From contig JASHPG010000172.1 of NCBI GenBank assembly GCA_030038275.1, positions 1 through 51,900 of the forward strand: a stretch of 51,900 nt of DNA, read 5' to 3'. Of the stretch, positions 13,307-26,328 are shown piece by piece. The notes below the pieces were generated by a model. The model ran no database searches. It was not told the DNA's origin and worked only from the letters and a program-made list of their open reading frames with translations. Source of the stretch: Candidatus Acidiferrales bacterium (GTDB lineage: Bacteria > Acidobacteriota > Terriglobia > Acidiferrales > UBA7541). Position 1 is the stretch's first letter. Each line of letters starts with the position of its first letter. Both the position numbers and the translations under genes were made by a program.

Positions 13307-14014
13307 ATGGCGTCGCCAAACTCCATTCTCTCGGTCGAAAAGCTAGGTGTCGCTTTCGGTCATAGCATCATCATCGACGACCTCAGCTTTGAAGTTCGCG
13401 AGGGCGATTGCCTCGCCGTCATTGGGCCCAACGGTGCCGGCAAAACCGTACTGCTCAAAGCGCTGCTCGGTCTCGTGCCTCATCGGGGCGAAATTCGCTG
13501 GAGCGTCGGCGCCCACCTGGGCTACGTTCCACAGAAGGTCGCCGCCGACCGGCAACAGCCCATTCGAGTGGTCGATCTACTGGCCTCGAAAGCAGCGGTA
13601 CAACACCTGCCATCCGCCGATATTTCCGCAGTGATTTCCGAAGTAGGGCTTTCGCAGCAAGTTCTCAATTCGAGCGTGGGACACTTATCCGGCGGCCAAT
13701 TCCAAAAAGCGCTGATCGCGTTCGCGCTGCTTGGCCGCCCCAACGTGCTGCTCTTCGACGAACCTACCGCCAGCCTCGATGAGCTCGCCGAAGAGCACGC
13801 TTACGACTTACTGCACAAGCTGCAGCACGAAAAAGGCATGACCGTCATCCTGGTCTCGCACGACCTAAGCGTGGTCTATCGATACGCAAATCAGGTGTTG
13901 TGCCTGAGCAAAGGCAAGCCGTGCATGGGGCCGCCAAAGGAATTGCTGACGCCAGGAATGCTGGAGGAACTCTATGGCGGGCCGTCAAAATTTTATCGTC
14001 ACATTCACGAATAA
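13307..14014 (+). CDS. znuC: Metal ABC transporter ATP-binding protein (ZnuC-like)
   Basis: The 235-residue ATPase has Walker A GPNGAGKTVLL, a Q-loop in LGYVPQKV, the ABC signature LSGGQFQK, Walker B VLLFDEPTASLD and an H-loop VSHDLSVV. The C-terminal end (LYGGPSKFYRHIHE) carries the His-containing tail common in zinc/manganese (ZnuC/MntB-type) ATPases. It lies 34 bases before a permease gene of the matching ABC-3 family. No substrate-binding protein gene is adjacent. The ion (Zn or Mn) cannot be fixed from sequence; no Zur or MntR box was recognised upstream. Confidence 0.85.
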   Translation: MASPNSILSVEKLGVAFGHSIIIDDLSFEVREGDCLAVIGPNGAGKTVLLKALLGLVPHRGEIRWSVGAHLGYVPQKVAADRQQPIRVVDLLASKAAVQHLPSADISAVISEVGLSQQVLNSSVGHLSGGQFQKALIAFALLGRPNVLLFDEPTASLDELAEEHAYDLLHKLQHEKGMTVILVSHDLSVVYRYANQVLCLSKGKPCMGPPKELLTPGMLEELYGGPSKFYRHIHE

Positions 14015-14048
14015 AACCACGGAGGGTCCGCGAACGCCGCGCTAGCGC

Positions 14049-14825
14049 ATGCACGAAGGAAACATTTTGCTCTTTTTTCTCGCGCTTTGCTTCGCTCTCG
14101 CGGCCGGATTGATCGGCTGTTTCGCGCTGATGAAGCGCATGCTGCTCGCGAGCGACGTGATATCGCACCTGGCGCTGCCGGGGCTCGGAGTCGCATTCCT
14201 GCTGAAGATCAATCCGCTTTATGGCGGAGCCGTCACTTTGTTTTTGGGAACGTTTCTCGTCTGGCAGCTTCAGAAAAAGACTGGGCTGGCCACCGACGCT
14301 TCGATCGGAGTAGTTTTCGCCGCTGCGCTTGCCATCGGCGCGGCCGTTACCCCCAAAGGCGATTTGATCGACGCGCTTTTCGGCGGTCTCGGAAGCGTGA
14401 ATTGGCTCGGCTTCCTGCTGGGCGTGGCTGCGTCAGCGGTGGTAGTGATTGCGGTTTTTCTAATGAAGGATCGCCTGACGCTTTCCACATTTTCCACGGA
14501 ACTAGCGGCGTCGAGCGGTATCCGTGTGGACCCGCTTGACTTGATCTATCTCCTAGTCTTCAGCCTCACGGTCCTCGTCGGGCTTCGTTTTATGGGCGCG
14601 CTGCTGGCCAGTTCGTTAATTATTTTGCCCGCGGCTGCCGCGCGTCAATTCGCGGACCGGCTATCGCGCTTCTTCGTCATCTCCGCGGCCATCAGCATGA
14701 TCTCGATTGTCGCAGGCGTCTTCTTCAACACGTACCTTTTCCACCTATCGACTATCGCGCCGGCCACGGTAATATTTGCGGCGCTCGTGTTCGCCGCAAG
14801 CCTTATCGTCCGCCGCTCCTGGTGA
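14049..14825 (+). CDS. znuB: Metal ABC transporter permease (ZnuB-like)
   Basis: The 258-residue permease has about eight hydrophobic segments and typical ABC-3 family landmarks: LIGCFALMKRMLLASDVISHLALPGLG near residue 20 and LRFMGALLASSLIILPAAAA near residue 178. Family members import zinc, manganese or iron together with a ZnuC-type ATPase, encoded just upstream. The stop codon ends at the base before the stop of the convergent hydrolase gene, so there is no spacer for a terminator. Confidence 0.85.
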   Translation: MHEGNILLFFLALCFALAAGLIGCFALMKRMLLASDVISHLALPGLGVAFLLKINPLYGGAVTLFLGTFLVWQLQKKTGLATDASIGVVFAAALAIGAAVTPKGDLIDALFGGLGSVNWLGFLLGVAASAVVVIAVFLMKDRLTLSTFSTELAASSGIRVDPLDLIYLLVFSLTVLVGLRFMGALLASSLIILPAAAARQFADRLSRFFVISAAISMISIVAGVFFNTYLFHLSTIAPATVIFAALVFAASLIVRRSW

Positions 14826-16953: not shown

Positions 16954-17526
16954 TCAGTTTGAATCCAGTCGTCGTTCAGCCGCGCTTCTTTCATTCAGCA
17001 GTGGTAAGATTAATTTCTCGACGTTTGCGGTGTATTCGAAGCCGATGATTTTCTGCCGCAAGATACCCCGGCGATCGTAGATAAACGTCGTCGGAAGCCC
17101 TTGCAGTTCCCCGAACTTTGCCGCAATCGCAGGCCCTCCAATTGCCAGCGGGTAAAGCACTCCGATTTTCTGCGCAAAGCGAACCGGATCCTCCGTATCC
17201 GCCATCATGGTCGCCTTAAATCCCACTACCGCCAGCCCCCGCGATCCGTAGTGGTCGAGCAGGTGCTGATATCCGGGCATCTCCTTCTTGCACGGCTCGC
17301 ACCAGGTCGCCCAAAAATCCACGATCGCTACCTTGCCCCGCAGCTCCGACGACGAAAATTGATTGCCCTGAAAATCCTTCACCGTGAAGTCCGGCAGCAT
17401 CGATCCTATTTCACCGGCGCGTGGAGCCGTTGCCGTGGCGTTTACCATTCGCGACGGTCGGCTGCAACCCGCAAGTAACGCAGCCACCAGAGCAATCGCC
17501 CACATCCGCAACCTGCGACTCGTCAT
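16954..17526 (-). CDS. TlpA-like thiol-disulfide oxidoreductase lipoprotein
   Basis: The 190-residue protein has a lipoprotein signal ending LLAGC (Cys21), then a TlpA/ResA-type thioredoxin domain with LPDFTVKDFQGN, active site WATWCEPCKKEM (Cys76 and Cys79) and the cis-Pro loop LQGLPTTFIYD. Family members reduce disulfides in periplasmic or membrane-anchored partners. The chosen ATG lies eight bases after the end of the HMA selenoprotein gene, and an alternative start would overlap it, so the two are translationally close. I infer that it may reduce the selenylsulfide or diselenide form of its neighbour. Both of its own active-site residues are ordinary cysteines. Confidence 0.8.
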   Translation of the reverse strand: MTSRRLRMWAIALVAALLAGCSRPSRMVNATATAPRAGEIGSMLPDFTVKDFQGNQFSSSELRGKVAIVDFWATWCEPCKKEMPGYQHLLDHYGSRGLAVVGFKATMMADTEDPVRFAQKIGVLYPLAIGGPAIAAKFGELQGLPTTFIYDRRGILRQKIIGFEYTANVEKLILPLLNERSAAERRLDSN

Positions 17527-17533
17527 CGGATGC

Positions 17534-18052
17534 TCATTCCTTTTTTTTAACCTCAAGGACTGTAAGCTTCAACTCTTTCGGAACCTGCTTCTTCTTGGCC
17601 TGCCCTTTTTCAAATAACCGTCCCTTCACCGTCACAACCGTCTGCGATCCGGCCAGCGCTTCGAGCTGCGCCGATTGCTGATTCGGCGATATCTCGAACG
17701 AGCGCCCCGGAGCGTACGTCAAGCTCAATCCTTGCGCCGTTCGCGTCACTCGACCGCTCACCGTCGCGTCCATTTCGCCCACGCTAACGCCGCTGTCGTA
17801 AGTTGCTTTCAGCAGCTCTCGCGGATCGATTTCGCCGTCATCTTTCGGAGTAATCTCCGCCGTCCCATCCCGCAAACTCACCAATGCTTTTGCCACGCCA
17901 GCCTGGCGTTCCAGGGATTTTTGCACCCCGTAAGCTCAAAAATTTCAAGTCATGCCCTCAACGCGCATTTCCACGTGCCGAATTTGCGCCTGCACGACCG
18001 GCACGCAAACAGCGCTCAAAATCAAAATCGCCGTAATCCTAGCCGCTTTCAT
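17534..18052 (-). CDS. Periplasmic HMA-domain selenoprotein with UxxU motif (two in-frame TGA codons)
   Basis: Read through two TGA codons, this is a 172-residue protein. GGGGAGGG precedes the ATG. Residues 1-22 are a signal peptide ending VVQA. Residues 24-43 read RHVEMRVEGMT-U-NF-U-AYGV, then KSLERQAGVAKALVSL and TAEITPK. This is the heavy-metal-associated fold (GMTCxxC...GV), and the two TGA codons (17947-17945 and 17938-17936) fall exactly on the two metal-binding cysteines, Sec36 and Sec39. No other stop interrupts the frame. Residues about 95-172 form a Lys-rich beta-type domain I do not recognise. It sits between an outer-membrane barrel gene and a TlpA-like gene, downstream of an RND efflux operon. 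Likely role: periplasmic capture of soft metal ions or metal-linked redox. Two independent nonsense mutations at exactly these codons are improbable. Confidence 0.82.
17895..17909 (-). promoter_or_regulatory. Candidate SECIS hairpin for the HMA selenoprotein
   Basis: On the coding strand ACGCCA and TGGCGT form a perfect six-pair stem around the loop GGC. The loop begins about 32 bases after the second TGA and starts with two G residues, as expected for bacterial SECIS elements. It is about 41 bases from the first TGA, beyond the usual range. An alternative short stem, GGGG with TCCC, lies between them and could serve the first TGA. Prediction is by eye. Confidence 0.45.
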
Positions 18053-18063
18053 TGGTCCCTCCC

Positions 18064-19023
18064 CTATAAGTGCAGCCGAAACTGCTGTGTAATTCCGAAA
18101 ATGATCTGCCGCCTCACCGGCATGTAAGCAATCCCCGATGAGTGCGCCACGTCCCAATCGACGCCAACCCACACATCCATCCCTGGCCGCGCGTCCACGT
18201 ACGTCGTCACGCCGGCAAGCAGCGCATCTCCTCCGCTACCGGCCTGCTCGACGCCTCCCACTCGATCGTTCTGCGCGTGCAACCACGTCACGTCCGGTCC
18301 GATGAACCAATCTCGGCTGGCGTACTTCGATTCATACGGCCGGTACGAAAGCCAAAACCGCGACGAGATTTCATCTCCCAATTTCGTGTCCTGCGTCCCG
18401 GTTGTCCGAAGCAGCGAACGAAAATCCTCATCGGCAACGAGCCGCCGGATGTTGAACACGCCGGTGTAGGTCCAGTTCGCGCCAAGAAAAAAATCGGCTG
18501 ATCCGGACCCTGCTTGCAAGCCTGCGGGCAAGAGCGCGCCGCTCTCGTCTCTCAGGTCGGTTCTCCCGGTTGGCAGCTTGGGACCGAATGTCACCGATAA
18601 CTGCGACGTTCCGCGCGGCGAATCTTTCCGGTAGAACCGGTATTTCACCAGCACCATCGTGTCTCCGAACCCTGTTCCTCTGGCTTCGGGCGCTGTGCTG
18701 CTGCCGCCAAAGTCGAAATGGTTCGCTACGATCGGTGCCGTCACTTCCAAGTCGAAATTAGAAAAGAATCCCCACGTGAAATCGAAATCCCCATCGTAAG
18801 AAAACGTCGGGCGCGCGGTGACAGGAATAATCCCGCCCAGCGCAGCAACTGGTTCTCGCGTTGCAAACGTTGAGCCATACGATATCAGCGCACCGCCGGG
18901 GAAAATCGGCGGAGCGGTCTCGGGAGATGGCCCTTGCGCCCGCGCTATCGCTGGTACGAACGCCAAAATGGACGCAACCACGTACGCACGAATTCGCGCG
19001 CGCACCGCATGGGACTGAACCAT
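18064..19023 (-). CDS. Outer-membrane beta-barrel protein (MetA-pathway/transporter-like)
   Basis: The 319-residue protein has a signal peptide (about 1-30, ending AIARAQ) and alternating beta-strand segments such as DFDFTWGFFSNFDLEVTAP, LVKYRFYRK, QLSVTFGPKLPTG and VWVGVDWDVAH, ending in the aromatic-rich QQFRLHL expected at the end of a barrel. The pattern resembles the 'phenol MetA-like/transporter' outer-membrane family of unknown substrate. The ATG at 19023 has GGAGGAGG immediately before it; an earlier TTG is embedded in that ribosome site. It precedes the HMA selenoprotein by 11 bases, so the two are almost certainly cotranscribed. Confidence 0.65.
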   Translation of the reverse strand: MVQSHAVRARIRAYVVASILAFVPAIARAQGPSPETAPPIFPGGALISYGSTFATREPVAALGGIIPVTARPTFSYDGDFDFTWGFFSNFDLEVTAPIVANHFDFGGSSTAPEARGTGFGDTMVLVKYRFYRKDSPRGTSQLSVTFGPKLPTGRTDLRDESGALLPAGLQAGSGSADFFLGANWTYTGVFNIRRLVADEDFRSLLRTTGTQDTKLGDEISSRFWLSYRPYESKYASRDWFIGPDVTWLHAQNDRVGGVEQAGSGGDALLAGVTTYVDARPGMDVWVGVDWDVAHSSGIAYMPVRRQIIFGITQQFRLHL

Positions 19024-19091
19024 AACCTCCTCCAAGCAGACTTCGGTTTTTCAGCGCACACACGTGCGCAAGTCGCCTGCTGGCGGAGTTT

Positions 19092-19436
19092 CTAGATTCG
19101 GAGGGGTAAAGAGTTCGCGCTAAATAACGAACCAGGCGGAGCGTGGGATCGTGCAACACCACGCGACAGAAGAGTCTGAACGGCGCACAATGCCGCACGC
19201 GAAGAAACGGCCGCCGAGCGAATCACATTCGGCGGCCGGATTTTTTCAACGCTGGCGTTGACGAATGGCGAGTGCGAGGCCGGCTGCGCATTGCAGCAAT
19301 TCTTTCTATGCGAACACGGCATATTCTTGCAGCACTGCATCGCCTGCTGCGGCGACATCGCGTACGAGCAGTCATTCGCGTACGCCGCGAGCGAAAGAAC
19401 GATAGCTATCGCGAGTGCTGCCTTTGAAACGTACAT
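19092..19436 (-). CDS. Small exported Cys-rich protein
   Basis: The 114-residue protein has a signal peptide (KAALAIAIVLSLAAYA) followed by a cysteine-dense segment: DCSYAMSPQQAMQCCKNMPC, then KNCCNAQ. That gives seven Cys in about 30 residues plus several His and Met. The rest is polar and ends with SHAPPGSLFSANSLPLRI. The composition suggests binding of a thiophilic metal such as Cu(I), Ag or Hg(II). No curated family is recognised, though a similar layout occurs in other acidobacterial proteins from memory. It lies 68 bases upstream of the outer-membrane protein gene and 57 bases downstream of the VOC gene, in the same direction. Confidence 0.6.
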   Translation of the reverse strand: MYVSKAALAIAIVLSLAAYANDCSYAMSPQQAMQCCKNMPCSHRKNCCNAQPASHSPFVNASVEKIRPPNVIRSAAVSSRAALCAVQTLLSRGVARSHAPPGSLFSANSLPLRI

Positions 19437-19493
19437 TATCTTCAACCTAGGCCCACCGCATCCGCAAGTCAAGCCCGCTATTCTCGGCGCGCC

Positions 19494-20639
19494 TCATCTT
19501 GTGTACGTGCCCGTTGGGTCCGTCTTCACGTCGTGGTCCATGAACTCCAGCCAGAATCCCTGCGGATCGCCCACGAAAAACATTCGCGTCGTCTTGGAGA
19601 TGAACACCGGCGCGTCGGACTTGCTTTCGGTATGCAGGTGCGCGGCTTTCACGCGCTGGATCATCACGTCGTCGTTTTTCGACATAAACAGGAAATGCGC
19701 CGCGCCTGCGTCTTGAAAGTACGGCCGCTTGAATTGCTTGCTGTGGTTTTTGTACTCGACTAGCTGCATCACCACTGGTGAACCTGGGACCAGCGCCTGC
19801 GCCATCCGGAATTGGCTGTGCGTGCCCGTCAGCTTTTCGTACGCCGCATCGCCCATTGACGGGCTCAGCCAAAACTTGAAATCCGGCCCGACGAGGCTCT
19901 CGTACATCCGAGCCGTTTTTTCGAGATTGTCCACCACGATCGTCACCCGCGCGCCCAGGACGTTGCTCCCTGCCGCGGCGGTCGTTGCCGGCGCGGGAGT
20001 GATTTGCATCAGTTCCACGGGATAGCCGTCCGGATCGCGCACCATCACCGCGCGAATTTGCCCAGTGATGCCCGGCCAGCTCGCAAGCTCTACCGGACTC
20101 CCGCCCTCCGTAATCACCGGCGTGCGTTCGCTCTTCAGCACTGCAAGCGTCTTATCGAGATCGGCAACGATCAGCGTCAAGTACGATGCTCCCGGATTCG
20201 TCAGTGGCGGATTGAAGCGGTGCTTCGGAATTCCCTGGATATCGATCGCTTCGATTGTCATTTCCGGGCCGCCCGTCGCCGCTGCGGTCCCAGGAATTGG
20301 GAGCAGCACCACCCGGCTGGTCTGAAGGTATGGGTTCGAAACTCCCTGCGCCAGCTCGGCCACTTCCTGCAAGCCCTTGTTAATAAAAAATGGCCGCGGC
20401 TGCTCGCGCTTGCCCACCAGTTCCAGGCCAATCAAGTCGTGGTAAAAGTGCGTCGTCAATTCAACGTTCGTAATCTGCCGCCCCAAGTGCCCTGGACGCA
20501 GCACGTCGCCCGGCGGCGCGATTCCGGTCGGCGGCGCGTCGAGCGTCGCCCACGATGTCTGCGCCGATGCCATCGGCGCTGCGATCGTCAGTATCACCGC
20601 CATTGTGATAAACCCGAGCACACCCGTTTTCTTGGTCAT
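19494..20639 (-). CDS. Exported protein with two VOC (glyoxalase-like) domains
   Basis: The 381-residue product starts at MTKKTGVLGF with a signal peptide ending ASAQ. Two vicinal-oxygen-chelate domains follow: the first about 50-205 (ITNVELTTHFYHDLIGLELV ... VRDPDGYPVELMQI), the second about 220-375 (ARVTIVVDNLEKTARMYESLVG ... VGDPQGFWLEFMDH). The Glu of PVELM and WLEFM are typical VOC metal ligands. The reaction (isomerase, dioxygenase or resistance protein) cannot be told. An exported VOC protein is unusual and its position between an RND pump and a Cys-rich protein suggests a link to metal handling. Confidence 0.7.
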   Translation of the reverse strand: MTKKTGVLGFITMAVILTIAAPMASAQTSWATLDAPPTGIAPPGDVLRPGHLGRQITNVELTTHFYHDLIGLELVGKREQPRPFFINKGLQEVAELAQGVSNPYLQTSRVVLLPIPGTAAATGGPEMTIEAIDIQGIPKHRFNPPLTNPGASYLTLIVADLDKTLAVLKSERTPVITEGGSPVELASWPGITGQIRAVMVRDPDGYPVELMQITPAPATTAAAGSNVLGARVTIVVDNLEKTARMYESLVGPDFKFWLSPSMGDAAYEKLTGTHSQFRMAQALVPGSPVVMQLVEYKNHSKQFKRPYFQDAGAAHFLFMSKNDDVMIQRVKAAHLHTESKSDAPVFISKTTRMFFVGDPQGFWLEFMDHDVKTDPTGTYTR

Positions 20640-20821
20640 TGCCGCTTTGGCCCCCTGATCTCGCTTAAGGATCTGCGAATCGCCATCTTCGCCGCTGCGC
20701 ATCATACGCTTCGCTCGCCGCCACCACAACGGCAACTCGCATGGGCGGCATGGGCGCCTCGCCGCGCGGTCCGGCGGCATCGCTTAGTTCAGCTCCAGCG
20801 CGCTTGAGTCGAGTGCTAGTT

Positions 20822-23800
20822 TTACAGTAATTGCTTTGTGGGTTTTAGCCAGTAGCTTGCGAACACCGGAATCAGAAGCAGAATCGCGAACGGCGCTGTC
20901 ACCATACCGCCAACCACCACGCGCGCCAGCGGCTGCTGTGCCTGCACCCCAATTCCCGTTGCCATCGCGGCCGGCAACAGTCCCAACCCTGCCGCCGCGC
21001 ACGCCATCAACACAGCGCGCATTTCCGCCACGCCGCCTTTTTCGATCGCTTCGAGCCTGGAGTTCGTGCCCGTCTCTTGCTTGCGTATGCCCGAAACTAC
21101 TACCACTCCTCCCAGCGTGCACACGCCTATAACCGATGCAAACCCCACCGCCGCCGAAATGCTGAACGGCGTGTGCGTGATCAGCAGTGATAGCACTCCG
21201 CCCGTCGCCGCGAACGGCAGCATTGCCAGCACGAGCGCGGCGTCGCGCAGGGAATTAAACGCGGTGAATAGCAGGCCGAGGATAATCACCAAGCTGATCG
21301 GGATGATCACTGCCAGTCGCCGCTGTTCTTCCCGCAGGCTCTCGTACTCGCCGGCCCATTCCAGGTGGTAGCCCTCGGGCAGATGGATTCGCTGCGCGAT
21401 TCGCGCCTGCGCCTCCTCCACCGTGCTCGAAAGGTCGCGCCCACGCACGCTAAACTTGATGGGGATATATCTCCGCCCGCCCTCGCGATAAATCACGAAC
21501 GCGCCTTCGTGCAGCGATACGTTTGCCACTTGGCCCAGCGGCACGCGTCCGCCGTCCGGAGTCGGAAGCAAAATGTTGCGAATGGCTTCCGGCGATTCTC
21601 GGTATTTCTTTTGATACCGGATCACGAAATCGAACCGCCGGTCTCCCTGCAGAATCTGCGTCGCGGCGATTCCGCCGATCGCCGCCTGCACCGCCGTATC
21701 CACGTCCTGCGCCATCAATCCGTAGCGCGCGCTCGCGTTTCGATCGATTGATACCAGCAGCTCCGGCTGGCCCGTTTCCGGAAATACGCCCAGGTCCGTA
21801 ATTCCCGGGACTCCCGCCATCACGTCGCGAATCTTGTCCGCTTCCGCCACCAGCACGTCGATGTCGTCGCCAAACAATTTCAGCGAGTTTTCTCCCTTTA
21901 CGCCGGACATCGCCTCTTCCACGTTGTCCTGAATGTTCTGCGAAAAGTTGAAATCGATCCCTGGAAACTTCTCCAGCCGCTGGTCCATCTGCCGGATCAG
22001 ATCGGGTTTGCTGATACCGTGTGGCCACTGCCCAGGCTGCTTTAGCGACACCATGAACTCGACGTTATTGAACGTCGTCACGTCGCTTCCGTCATCAGGC
22101 CGCCCCATCTGCGAAACAACCTGCGTCACCTCCGGGTACGTCAGCAAAATCTCGCGAATATCGTGTGCCATTCGCGCGCCGGTTTCATACGACGCGTCCT
22201 GCGGCAGCGTCGCCCGCACCCACAAATTCCCTTCTTCCAGCGCGGGCATGAACTCGCCTCCAAGGAACGATCCCAGCGCCAGCGTCACCACCAGCGCTGC
22301 CGCCGCGATTCCAAGCACGCTTTTTCGGTGCTTCAGTGTCCACGCCAATGTCTGCGAGTAATGCCGCCCAAGGAATTCCACGAGCCTCGTGCTGTGCTTC
22401 TTCACGCTTTCCGGGCGTATCCAGGAGGCCAGGACGGGCGCGAAGAAAATGGAAAAGAGCAACGCACCCGTCAACGCGAAGCCGTACGTTTCAGACATCG
22501 GCGCGAAAATTCTTCCCGGCACGCCTTGCATGCTGAACAGAGGAATCAACGCAACGATGATCACCAACACCGAAAACAGTACCGGTCGCACCGCTTCCGC
22601 CGTCGCCTCGGCCACGATCTCTTGCGACGTGATTCCGTGCGGCGCCGATTGTAGCCGCCGGTAAACGTTCTCCAGCACGATCACGCTCGCGTCCACTAGG
22701 ATTCCGAAGTCGATCGCCCCGATGGAAATCAGGTTCGCCGATCCGCCGCCCATCACCATCAGCGCAAATGCGAACAGCAGCGCGCAAGGAATTGTCAGCG
22801 CGGCGATCAGCGACATCGGCAGGTCTCCCAAAAACACGATCAGGATCGCCGTCACCAGCGCCAATCCCATTAGCACGATGTCGCGAACCGTCGATGTGGT
22901 CAGATGGATCAAGTCGGTCCGGTCGTAAAGCGTCACGAGCTTCATGCCGGACGGCAACAGCCCATTGTTTAGGTCCTTTACTTTTTCCTTGAGTGCCTTC
23001 AGTGCTGGCAGCGACTGCTCTCCGCGCTGCAGCAGCACGATCCCTTCGATCGCGTCGTCATCGTGGTTCACGCCCACCAGCCCCAGCCGCGGTTCCGTTC
23101 CTTCGTGAACGTTCGCCACGTCGCTCAAAAACACCGGCACGCCGCTGTGCTCCGCGATCAGCACGTTCTTCATGTCCTGCAAATTTTCCAGCAACCCAAT
23201 CCCGCGTACGTTGACGCTCTGCGCGCCCATCGTCAGGTAATTGCCGCCGGCATTCGCGTTGCTGGCCGCCACCGCCGAAATCACCTGCGGCAGCGTCACG
23301 TTGTATTGCAATAGTTTCTGTGGATCGACCTCTGCTTGGTATTCACGCGTCGTTCCTCCAAACGACGCCACGTCCACGATCCCCGGCACCTGCTTGATTT
23401 CCCGCGTCACGAACCAATCCTGCGTCGCCTTCAGCTCGTTCAAGCTGTACGACGGCCCGTACAGCCGGTAACGATAGATTTCTCCGATCGGCGATTCCGG
23501 CGAAAGCTGCGGACTCAGTCCTCCCGGCAGCGTCAAGTTTTGCAGCCGGTTCAGCGCCTCTTGCCGGTCCCAGTAGTAATCGCTGTCGTAACTGAAATAG
23601 AGCTTCACGTCGCTCAGTCCGAAAATACTGATCGACCGCACCTGGTCCAGGTGCGGCATGCCAAAGAGCGCCGTTTCCACCGGCACCGTCACCTGCTGCT
23701 CCATTTCTTCGGCGGACCACGACGCATTCTGCGTGATGAATTCCACCATCGGCGGCGAGGGATCGGGATACGCCTCGATGTCCAGACGTGAAAACATGTA

Positions 23801-23881
23801 CGCGCCGCCCGCGACCCACGCGGCCAATGCCACGATCACCAGCGGCCTATAGCGAAGAAGCGATCGAATCAGCGCGCGCAT
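20822..23881 (-). CDS. Heavy-metal efflux RND pump, CzcA/CusA family
   Basis: The 1019-residue inner-membrane protein has the RND layout: TM1 (residues about 14-31), large periplasmic loop, TM2-6, second loop and TM7-12. The fourth-helix motif GAIDFGILVDASVIVLEN carries both Asp residues of the HME proton relay. The DFGx3D form fits pumps for divalent cations (Zn, Co, Cd, Ni) better than CusA-type Cu/Ag pumps, although the canonical GA after the second Asp is AS here. It exports metal ions across both membranes with the adaptor and TolC-type genes upstream. It starts four bases after the adaptor stop. Confidence 0.9.
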   Translation of the reverse strand: MRALIRSLLRYRPLVIVALAAWVAGGAYMFSRLDIEAYPDPSPPMVEFITQNASWSAEEMEQQVTVPVETALFGMPHLDQVRSISIFGLSDVKLYFSYDSDYYWDRQEALNRLQNLTLPGGLSPQLSPESPIGEIYRYRLYGPSYSLNELKATQDWFVTREIKQVPGIVDVASFGGTTREYQAEVDPQKLLQYNVTLPQVISAVAASNANAGGNYLTMGAQSVNVRGIGLLENLQDMKNVLIAEHSGVPVFLSDVANVHEGTEPRLGLVGVNHDDDAIEGIVLLQRGEQSLPALKALKEKVKDLNNGLLPSGMKLVTLYDRTDLIHLTTSTVRDIVLMGLALVTAILIVFLGDLPMSLIAALTIPCALLFAFALMVMGGGSANLISIGAIDFGILVDASVIVLENVYRRLQSAPHGITSQEIVAEATAEAVRPVLFSVLVIIVALIPLFSMQGVPGRIFAPMSETYGFALTGALLFSIFFAPVLASWIRPESVKKHSTRLVEFLGRHYSQTLAWTLKHRKSVLGIAAAALVVTLALGSFLGGEFMPALEEGNLWVRATLPQDASYETGARMAHDIREILLTYPEVTQVVSQMGRPDDGSDVTTFNNVEFMVSLKQPGQWPHGISKPDLIRQMDQRLEKFPGIDFNFSQNIQDNVEEAMSGVKGENSLKLFGDDIDVLVAEADKIRDVMAGVPGITDLGVFPETGQPELLVSIDRNASARYGLMAQDVDTAVQAAIGGIAATQILQGDRRFDFVIRYQKKYRESPEAIRNILLPTPDGGRVPLGQVANVSLHEGAFVIYREGGRRYIPIKFSVRGRDLSSTVEEAQARIAQRIHLPEGYHLEWAGEYESLREEQRRLAVIIPISLVIILGLLFTAFNSLRDAALVLAMLPFAATGGVLSLLITHTPFSISAAVGFASVIGVCTLGGVVVVSGIRKQETGTNSRLEAIEKGGVAEMRAVLMACAAAGLGLLPAAMATGIGVQAQQPLARVVVGGMVTAPFAILLLIPVFASYWLKPTKQLL

Positions 23882-23884
23882 CGG

Positions 23885-25027
23885 TCAGTTTTCCGCCGCT
23901 TCTCGCAGCAGCAGCGCGCCCTGCGTCACCACCGTATCTCCCGCCCTCAAGCCGTTCTCGATCTCGACCGAACCTCCCATCGTTTGCCCCAGCGTCACTA
24001 CTCGACGCTCGAAGCGCCCGTTTCGCTCGGATACGAATGCGTAAGCCATGGTCCCTTCCCGGATCACCGCCGTGGACGGCACCACGATCCCTTTGCTCGT
24101 CGATTTCAGCAGCCAGATGCTTCCGAACATCGCCGGTTTCAGCCGCGCGCCAGGATTCGCCAGCACCACGCGTACGTGCAGTGTCCGCGTATTCGGATCG
24201 ACGGCATCCGCAACCGCGCTCACCTGTCCGTTCCACGATTGCCCCGGATACGCATCCATCGTCACCACCGCCGGTTCTCCTGGATGCGCTGCGGTCAACT
24301 CCTGCTCGTAAATGTCTCCCACCGCCCATACGCTCGAAATATCGGCGATCGTGCACAGCGGCTGCGCCGCCGAAAGCGCGTTCGAGTACTCGCCCTGCGC
24401 CGCGCCGATATCCAGCACCACGCCGGAACGCGGAGACACCACCCGCAAATCCGCCCCCGCATGGTCTGGATCCACGCCAAGCACTTGTAATTGCGCGCGG
24501 GCCGCTTGCACTTCGGCTTCAGCCATTTGTGCGTCGCCCTGCGCCTGCTGCAAATCCTTCTGCGCGATCGCGCTGTGCGCGTAAAGATACGTTGCCCGAT
24601 CGAGCTCCTTCTTCTTCACTTCGCTATCGATCGCAGCCTTGTGATAGTCGGCTACCGCCCGCGCCAAGTCGCTGCTGTCCAGAATGGCCAACGTCTGCCC
24701 TTTTTCCACGTGGTCCCATGGCCGCACTTTCATTTCCGTGATTCGCCCGCCCGCCGGTGCATAGACGTGCACCACGCGCGTCGGATCGGCCTGAATCTGC
24801 GCCGGCAGTTCCAGATAATTCGGTACGGCCGAAACCTGGACCGTTTCTGTCGTAACTCCGCTGGCATTCGGCGCCACGTATTCTCCGGCCAAACCCGAGC
24901 TAGTAGTCGCATTCTGCGTCACCGCTGAATCCTGCTTCGCTACGCTGTTGCCGCAGCCTGCCAGCACCATTGCCAATGCTAGGCACAAAATTGCCGCCGC
25001 CAAAAAAATCGCAAGCGTCCGCCTCAT
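23885..25027 (-). CDS. RND efflux periplasmic adaptor lipoprotein (CzcB/CusB-like)
   Basis: The 380-residue protein has a lipoprotein signal ending VLAGC and the membrane-fusion-protein order: barrel-sandwich halves (VVHVYAPAGGRITEMKVRPWDHVEKGQTLAILD and the matching return VVSPRSGVVLDIGA), an alpha-helical hairpin between them, a beta-barrel (SVWAVGDIYEQELTAAHPGEPAV) and a membrane-proximal domain near the C-terminus. It links the pump to the outer-membrane channel. Its start overlaps the stop of the TolC-family gene by four bases (ATGA), indicating translational coupling. Confidence 0.88.
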   Translation of the reverse strand: MRRTLAIFLAAAILCLALAMVLAGCGNSVAKQDSAVTQNATTSSGLAGEYVAPNASGVTTETVQVSAVPNYLELPAQIQADPTRVVHVYAPAGGRITEMKVRPWDHVEKGQTLAILDSSDLARAVADYHKAAIDSEVKKKELDRATYLYAHSAIAQKDLQQAQGDAQMAEAEVQAARAQLQVLGVDPDHAGADLRVVSPRSGVVLDIGAAQGEYSNALSAAQPLCTIADISSVWAVGDIYEQELTAAHPGEPAVVTMDAYPGQSWNGQVSAVADAVDPNTRTLHVRVVLANPGARLKPAMFGSIWLLKSTSKGIVVPSTAVIREGTMAYAFVSERNGRFERRVVTLGQTMGGSVEIENGLRAGDTVVTQGALLLREAAEN

Positions 25028-26328
25028 TGCAAAACCTCCCGGCCCACCGCCATGTTCAATTGCGCTGCCGCCGTCAAATAAGAACCTATCAAGTTCAGAT
25101 AACTGAGCCGGATGGTCCGGTAATCGTTTTCCGCGCTCAGAAAATCCAATAGCGACTCCGCCCCGCGTTCGTACGATGTCCTCACCGTCTCGCGCACCCG
25201 GCTCGCCTGCGCCAGGTACGTCTGCTTGTACGGTCGCAGCAACGCCACGTCGCTATTCACCTGCGCGTACGCCGAATCCACGTCGCCGAAAACCTGCGCC
25301 CGCGCCGCATCCAGCAGTTGCTGATTTTTTGTGACGTCCAGTTCCGTGCGCAGTTTTTCTCCCTGATTGCGGTCGAAAATGCGCAGCGGCACGTTCACGC
25401 TGATTCCCAGCGTTTGCAGTCCGGTTGTATTTGGGTTGTTCGTGGACGCGTTGTGCGTGTACCACGCGCTGAACGTCGGATCCGTCGAACCATCGGCAAC
25501 CGCCAGTCGATGGTTCACCTGCGCCTGATCGACCGATTGCATTGCTGCCCGCAGGTCCGGCCTGTTCGCTAGCGCCAGATTCCTAATATCGTCGAGCGTC
25601 GGTAGTTCGTCCGTGTAGTCAAACGGACCGGTTACGTCGAACTGGTTCACCGGCGTTCGCTCGTTCAGCAGCTCCAACATCTGAATTTTCGCCGTCCGCG
25701 GGTTCACTTCCGCGGTTTGTAAGTCCGACTCGAACTGCACTCGCTGCAATTCGAGCCTGTCCATATCCAATCCCGAGATATCACCCACGCTAAGCCGGTC
25801 GCGGCTGATGGTGAGCACGCGGTCCCAGTAACCGAGGTTGTCCTGCGCGAGTTGCAGCACCGCCTTCGCCTGCAGCGTATCGACGAACGCCGCCCGCAAA
25901 TTGAAAAGCAACGTCCTCCGCAGGTCGGCCTGATCCGAAACGGCTATCGCCGTCCCAGCTTCCGCGCTTTTCAACCGCAGTTCCCGCTTGTGGTCGCGCT
26001 CGTGTAAATAGCTGATCTGCGCGACCTCATACGTGCCCGCGAACGGCGTCCATATCCCCTTATTGGGCGCGATCTGCGTCCCGTCCTCCGAAACAGTAAG
26101 TTCCGGATTGGGTCTCAGGTACGCGCTGGTCTCTTCTGCGCGCGATTCGCTAATCCCCGTTTCGCCGGCCTGCAACGTCGGATTGTTCTGCTCGAAACGC
26201 TGCTGAACCTGAGCCCACGTCAGCGGCGTCGCCGTCTGCGCCCGTATGCCGCCCGCACCCAAAAGAACGCCAATCCAAGCCACTAGCCAAAATTTCCACA
26301 GCCCCAATCGAGCTGCTCTCGATCTCAT
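25024..26328 (-). CDS. TolC/CzcC-family outer-membrane efflux protein
   Basis: The 434-residue protein has a signal peptide ending GGIRAQ and two repeats of the outer-membrane efflux protein fold, each with a long coiled-coil region (about 40-230 and 245-430). SYLHERDHKRELRLKSAE and PDLRAAMQSVDQAQ are representative helices. It forms the outer-membrane exit channel of the CzcCBA-type pump encoded downstream, with which it overlaps by four bases. It is the first gene of the pump operon; about 130 bases separate it from the FG-GAP gene upstream. Confidence 0.88.
   Translation of the reverse strand: MRSRAARLGLWKFWLVAWIGVLLGAGGIRAQTATPLTWAQVQQRFEQNNPTLQAGETGISESRAEETSAYLRPNPELTVSEDGTQIAPNKGIWTPFAGTYEVAQISYLHERDHKRELRLKSAEAGTAIAVSDQADLRRTLLFNLRAAFVDTLQAKAVLQLAQDNLGYWDRVLTISRDRLSVGDISGLDMDRLELQRVQFESDLQTAEVNPRTAKIQMLELLNERTPVNQFDVTGPFDYTDELPTLDDIRNLALANRPDLRAAMQSVDQAQVNHRLAVADGSTDPTFSAWYTHNASTNNPNTTGLQTLGISVNVPLRIFDRNQGEKLRTELDVTKNQQLLDAARAQVFGDVDSAYAQVNSDVALLRPYKQTYLAQASRVRETVRTSYERGAESLLDFLSAENDYRTIRLSYLNLIGSYLTAAAQLNMAVGREVLQ

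Follow-up and report, generated by a model that had tools for sequence, protein, structure and literature searches.

Does the interrupted reading frame in the 51,900-nt stretch of Candidatus Acidiferrales DNA analysed here (the window) belong to a broken gene, or does it encode a protein with two selenocysteine (Sec, U) residues? Read from the ATG at 18052, the frame runs through a TGA at 17947–17945 (codon 36) and a TGA at 17938–17936 (codon 39), followed by 133 sense codons and a terminating TGA at 17536–17534. The TGA pair falls on both Cys positions of the heavy-metal-associated (HMA) motif GMTCxxC, in the context VEGMT-U-NF-U-AYGV. An earlier note on this DNA had proposed this frame, and our reading confirmed its start codon, both TGA positions and the 133 open codons. 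The features of the locus are collected in Table 1.

Table 1. Features of the HMA-OB locus and its neighbours (positions in the window)
Feature	Position	Strand	Remark
TlpA/ResA-like thioredoxin lipoprotein (WCEPC)	16954..17556	(-)	likelier start ATG at 17526
UxxU HMA-OB selenoprotein gene	17534..18052	(-)	172 codons + stop
Probable signal peptide, residues 1–22, ...VVQA/Q	17987..18052	(-)	sequence reading and AF2 helix 5–13
HMA domain, residues 22–99	17756..17989	(-)	
UGA1, Sec36, first metal-site position	17945..17947	(-)	
UGA2, Sec39, second metal-site position	17936..17938	(-)	
Hairpin SL1, between UGA2 and SL2	17914..17929	(-)	register varies among relatives
Hairpin SL2, SECIS-like	17893..17911	(-)	window stem 17895–17909, 6 bp, loop GGC
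C-terminal domain, about residues 90–172, probable OB-fold	17537..17785	(-)	AF2, PDB
Exported protein, outer-membrane-barrel-like by appearance only	18064..19035	(-)	without Pfam family
Small exported Cys-rich protein (MQCCKNMPCSHRKNCC)	19092..19472	(-)	
Glyoxalase/dioxygenase-fold protein	19494..20780	(-)	
CusA/CzcA family heavy-metal RND pump	20822..23881	(-)	TIGR00914, 869.7 bits, cut-off 701.45
CusB/HlyD-type membrane-fusion protein	23885..25027	(-)	PF16576, 161.6 bits
Outer-membrane efflux protein	25024..26328	(-)	PF02321, 125.7 bits

The read-through product

With Cys in place of Sec, residues 29–83 of the read-through product matched the Pfam HMA family PF00403 with 33.6 bits, above the cut-off of 24.8. 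The HMA fold is present in the AlphaFold model, where the best PDB matches are CopZ, MerP and copper ATPase domains. The model also indicates that the C-terminal domain is probably an OB-fold; for this domain, Foldseek returned nothing at 0.001, the top match being BrxL with an E value of 0.036, and a sequence-profile search of the PDB gave matches only at E 0.44 and above. The PHROGs collection yielded no match to the UxxU HMA-OB protein at 0.01. Mechanical ORF calling splits the gene and gives a 130-aa ORF from the GTG at 17926, and copies of the HMA-OB gene have therefore probably been missed in annotation.

Homologues, selection and phylogeny

To place the TGA pair in a family, 396 genomes of the phylum, including the source genome, were searched without fixing the TGAs. 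The search returned 74 matching stretches in 59 genomes, and 23 of these stretches carry an internal stop: two TGA codons in 14, one TGA in eight and one TAG in a single stretch (L042), where it falls 3' of the HMA domain. The two-TGA stretches are the window gene and 13 others, and all 13 others read as UxxU. Three of the eight one-TGA stretches read as UxxC (L024, L036 and L043); of five further one-TGA rows (L134–L138), L135 is CxxC with its TGA located elsewhere, and the other four did not match the motif filter. Many of the stop-free matches are CxxC. Thus, both the Cys homologues and the further UxxU homologues that the earlier note had proposed to look for were found, and the UxxU, UxxC and CxxC forms align at the same residues. 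The TGA pair falls on the HMA cysteines, as the note had claimed.

Named bacterial and archaeal genomes were also scanned, using a DNA pattern that contains both TGAs; of the 84 stretches obtained, 49 are family members and 35 read as chance. The pattern itself fixes the TGAs, and their invariance in this set is not evidence; SL2 lies outside the pattern. A motif filter gave 48 of these members and dropped a true one, L079, which is the 49th. L079 is included in the bSECIS, shuffle, covariation and tree sets and is absent from the neighbourhood, dN/dS, single-fold and 45-sequence SL2 sets. According to the record titles, which cover 48 of the 49 members, 40 are acidobacterial, five are Methylomirabilota or Methylomirabilis (L050, L068, L077, L079 and L108), and the others are from Tectomicrobia (L065), Nitrospinae (Nitrospinota; L081) and an uncultured bacterium (L103). 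The two sets overlap and share at least six of the 13 other two-TGA stretches from the phylum search (L063, L096, L109, L113, L125 and L126). Together they provide 53 distinct UxxU sequences, which their record titles assign to four phyla; 45 were obtained via the TGA-fixing pattern, seven without it, and one is the window copy. Neither TAA nor TAG was seen at the two TGA positions.

The closest relative of the window gene is L090, from a Candidatus Acidiferrales MAG, with 87% identity. Across the 50 codons that follow the second TGA, the two copies differ by one nonsynonymous and 13 synonymous changes (dN 0.009, dS 0.468). The corresponding values are dN 0.079 and dS 0.490 for the stretch before the first TGA, and dN 0.086 and dS 0.536 for the C-terminal part. 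The median dN/dS over 656 pairs was 0.43, in a set that includes saturated and probably some misaligned pairs; for this reason only the window/L090 comparison was used. The earlier note had judged that random stops would hardly land on just these two codons, and both the constraint after the second TGA and the UxxU in 13 further genomes of the 396 bear this out.

In a tree of 56 homologues, from which 18 near-copies or cut sequences had been removed by hand, and also rows shorter than 110 residues, the window and L090 copies lie within a supported set of 12 UxxU rows. The three UxxC rows stand apart: two adjoin a CxxC clade and one adjoins a CxxC paralogue of the same genome. This scatter suggests, from sequence comparison, that Sec and Cys were exchanged stepwise. 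At locus L024 (G377:C87), a UxxC copy and a CxxC copy are separated by about 1 kb and group as sisters in the tree, which marks a Sec/Cys exchange inside a single genome. L068 and L108 are two UxxU genes on a single Methylomirabilota contig, JACQQF010000073.1, and fall on different tree branches.

The selenocysteine machinery

The source genome (4.07 Mb, 88% complete) contains a tRNA-Sec with the anticodon tca, SelA (567 bits), SelB (382 bits) and SelD (363 bits), so all four of selA, selB, selC and selD, which the earlier note had named as a check, are present. SelD carries its own in-frame TGA, reading GUASKL, and is itself a selenoprotein. A second, partial SelB-like match (G000:C156:28-1152; 199 bits, below cut-off) lies at a contig end.

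Among the 14 genomes with UxxU stretches in the phylum search, the source genome included, tRNA-Sec was detected in ten. It was not found in four drafts, G290, G266, G110 and G026, which are 65%, 72%, 95% and 95% complete. Because tRNA-Sec is common across the phylum (238 of the 396 genomes), its presence lends weak support. For the named loci, tRNA-Sec was found at 1e-8 in 37 of the 45 searched, one of these 37 (the L090 genome, 49.7 bits) being doubtful, and was not found for eight. These 45 are part of the 49 loci; L096, L109 and L126 were covered in the phylum search, and L108 shares its contig with L068.

Hairpins downstream of the UGA codons

When members were folded singly, two hairpins 3' of the UGAs formed as a rule. 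The SL2 hairpin, defined as columns 37–43 paired with columns 49–55 as counted from UGA1, was 96.2% paired in 45 sequences. In the 53 distinct UxxU sequences, 95.4% of the cells are paired, 26 cells are changed on both sides, and the covariation score is 0.295, as compared to at most 0.085 for slid partners. Neither the pairing, nor the number of two-sided cells, nor the covariation score was reached by any of 500 shuffles. Three pairs with two-sided change were reached by eight of the 500 shuffles, and eight further pair types by 117. A G-C pair of SL2 that is constant in the other sequences is A-U in L079, through a CGC to CAC change together with a silent GGC to GGT change. Inside SL2, Arg is encoded by CGC in 49 of 49 sequences and Gly by GGC in 49 of 49 (counted without L079, after a filter that fixed amino acids and not codons), while the codons of the conserved Gly residues 28 and 53 vary. 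Codon choice inside SL2 thus goes beyond the need of the protein. All 53 UxxU sequences have a G at loop column 45.

Published rules for bacterial SECIS elements ask for a loop of 3–9, a stem of 4–16, a G in the first two loop positions, a spacing of 16–37 nt and an energy of −7.5 or lower (PMC13188914). Applied by script in the form in which that paper states them, they identified a hairpin for UGA2 in 48 of the 53 UxxU sequences, every time at SL2. Conforming hairpins were found in two of 18 CxxC homologues for the second codon and in three of 18 for either codon, these controls being a motif-filtered, non-random set in which some members, judged by length, lack the C-terminal domain. In the three UxxC homologues, no hairpin conforms to the model. 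Against synonymous-codon shuffles with family-pooled codon use, the UxxU sequences gave a mean z of −2.92, with 50 of 53 under −1.5, as compared to a mean of −0.81 for the CxxC sequences, with six of 18 under −1.5 and one at −4.13.

The window copy is a weaker example. Its SL2 has lost two basal pairs and keeps five of seven; the loop GGC and the spacing fit, but the contiguous 6-bp stem has an energy of −7.0 kcal/mol against the limit of −7.5, which L090 also misses. The synonymous-shuffle z of the window copy is −1.62 (p 0.067); tested against dinucleotide shuffles, its 66-nt stretch shows no excess of folding (z −0.32). Rfam returned nothing up to E 5 for positions 17500–18400. The bSECIS check suggested in the earlier note therefore had a divided outcome: the family hairpin fits and covaries, and the window copy falls slightly short of the energy limit.

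As one fixed stem, SL1 has 74.5% of its cells paired with a covariation score of 0.134; slid by −1 it has 67.6% with 0.217, and slid by +1, 74.2% with 0.184. Since its register shifts among subfamilies, we make no claim of covariation for SL1.

Gene neighbourhood

The HMA-OB gene is flanked on one side by a tripartite CusA/CzcA-type efflux run and on the other by the gene for the TlpA-like lipoprotein, all on the minus strand. Neighbours were counted as single-linkage ORF clusters within 5.5 kb at 49 loci including the window, some of which are too short to hold all of them. The neighbour that recurs most often is the cluster of the barrel-like gene (45 of 49 loci), followed by those of the TlpA-like gene (27 of 49) and the Cys-rich gene (18 of 49). 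The pump gene cluster was found beside the window and L090 only, among loci of at most 8 kb that barely test for it. Beside some relatives, of which one or two examples of each neighbour type were scanned, there is an NHL-repeat lipoprotein, an ArsP_1 permease, a heavy-metal P-type (P1B) ATPase or a MerT-HMA fusion.

The Cys-rich protein and its relatives share the pattern AMxCCxxMxC...CC. No Pfam family was matched at 0.1 by the window copy, and no NCBIfam model at 0.001 by a relative's copy; this small exported protein is a possible metal-binding partner. At 13307–14825 on the plus strand, not far from the efflux run, genes for a ZnuC-like protein (below cut-off) and an ABC-3 permease probably make up a metal ABC transporter. 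A Pfam HMA search of the source genome gave nothing at 1e-3; as it missed even the HMA-OB gene, it apparently overlooks domains split by TGA. Within the limits of that search, which found no Cys-type HMA domain in the 88% complete assembly, the genome may have the UxxU protein as its only HMA protein.

Proposed mechanism and alternative readings

The Sec machinery, the exchange among UxxU, UxxC and CxxC forms and the covarying family hairpin support the selenocysteine interpretation, and the window gene very probably encodes a real double selenoprotein. Computation established the gene with its two UGAs, the Sec machinery, the exchange of Sec and Cys among homologues, a covarying hairpin in the family, the HMA fold and the order of the genes; from these we infer Sec insertion in the source organism, export, the identity of the metal and the roles of the partners as follows. 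The GMTCxxC pair of an HMA domain would be replaced by GMTUxxU and fused to a probable OB-fold in an exported protein. Both UGAs would be read as Sec by SelB and tRNA-Sec, directed by the hairpins just downstream, with SL2 as the putative SECIS for UGA2. Acting in the periplasm, the two selenolates would take up ions of soft metals, namely Hg(II), Cu(I) and Ag(I), and could hand them to the adjoining CusA/CzcA-type efflux system, while the TlpA-like lipoprotein might keep the pair reduced. For this whole explanation, an exported two-domain double selenoprotein with an HMA domain and a probable OB-fold that serves soft-metal capture, we estimate a probability of about 0.7.

How the two UGAs would be decoded can be considered from ribosome geometry. 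The ribosome covers about 12 nt downstream of the A site. With UGA2 being decoded, SL1 would thus be open and SL2 still folded; SL1 would be melted by a ribosome that has halted at UGA2, and a separate hairpin for each UGA is therefore conceivable. We offer only tentatively the fuller proposal that tandem hairpins occur family-wide, SL1 for UGA1 and SL2 for UGA2, and that the encoded protein acts in the periplasm as a diselenolate metal trap and represents a new HMA-OB family. With its two hairpins and with UGAs spaced by nine bases, the gene offers a natural test of double-Sec decoding.

Several other readings were weighed. If only UGA2 had a SECIS, translation would end at UGA1 on most ribosomes, making the full-length protein rare or selenium-conditional. 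The position of SL2, about 40 nt from UGA1 and so outside the model range of 16–37 nt, fits this idea, as does the detection of a conforming UGA1 hairpin in only 21 of the 53 UxxU sequences, the window copy not being among them; yet SL1 sits in between, with its loop 20–22 nt from UGA1 in those 21, and we regard a SECIS for UGA2 alone as very unlikely. A pseudogene, or an internal start at GTG 17926 after termination at the first TGA, would agree with the 130-aa ORF from mechanical calling. Such a start would cost the HMA domain its metal site along with its first strand, and the upstream part is conserved in frame between the window and L090. Moreover, both TGAs recur in the 53 sequences of four phyla, 13 phylum genomes having been found without the TGA pattern, and TAA and TAG are absent from the two positions; on the recurrence and the conserved upstream frame, we rejected this hardly credible reading. 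Least probable, to a degree close to negligible, is a changed genetic code in which TGA specifies Trp or Cys in the source genome. No supporting evidence was found for it; it was rejected in view of the complete Sec system, including tRNA-Sec(tca), and of the neighbouring 1019-residue pump gene, which is open under table 11, and the UxxU/UxxC/CxxC alignment fits Sec.

The most serious rival accepts the selenoprotein and disputes its function, taking UxxU as a redox centre, a diselenide/diselenol electron carrier working with the TlpA-like neighbour, and not as a metal site. The protein is probably periplasmic, the TlpA-like gene lies near more than half of the members (27 of 49), and redox functions are assumed for most prokaryotic selenoproteins (PMC9312934). 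The HMA metal-binding fold, with its best matches among CopZ, MerP and copper ATPase domains, speaks against a redox centre, as do the metal-efflux and MerT-type genes among the neighbours, and we consider this reading improbable, if less so than those above. We therefore keep to soft-metal capture by a double selenoprotein. What looked like a broken gene then encodes a double selenoprotein that recurs in Acidobacteriota and some other phyla and in the window adjoins a metal-efflux system, which suggests a use of selenium for soft-metal capture outside the cytoplasm.

Comparison with known selenoproteins and metallochaperones

UxxU metal-binding proteins have been named before. NF041115 (UxxU_metal_bind) is described as a metal-binding protein or putative mercuric reductase with UxxU and two Sec residues, and is credited to a 2007 study of Olavius symbionts (PMC13188914); the UxxU metal-binding protein is also called a putative mercuric reductase elsewhere (PMC9312934). 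A MerP selenoprotein appears in a table of the marine GOS selenoproteome, in a row that gives no motif (PMC2398784). In the main text of PMC12013277, the terms MerP, mercur-, UxxU and HMA are absent. A search of titles and the openings of abstracts, with subscription papers mostly outside its reach, found no description of the HMA-OB form.

The earlier note had left undecided whether this family has a name. UxxU in an HMA domain is already represented in NCBIfam, by NF041115 and NF045683, but the HMA-OB protein scores below both cut-offs; indeed, it lies below every NCBIfam cut-off tested, and no NCBIfam model was found to cover the family.

The closest likeness is to NF041115, which shares the UxxU in the HMA domain and was matched at E 1e-5 or better by all 39 members scanned, out of 50 with the window included. 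The window protein reaches 43.1 bits against its cut-off of 95, in a model only 74 positions long. NF045683, the MerT/CopZ fusion-like heavy metal transport selenoprotein, likewise has an HMA domain in a heavy-metal selenoprotein; the window protein matches only the C-terminal part of that model, lacks the MerT part and scores 30.7 against 375 bits. MerP and CopZ-type metallochaperones are single-domain CxxC proteins, and the window protein scores 38.7 bits against the MerP model TIGR02052 (cut-off 92.55) and 49.1 bits against the CopZ-type model NF047957 (cut-off 85). As compared to NF041115, the window protein has an additional leader and a C-terminal domain.
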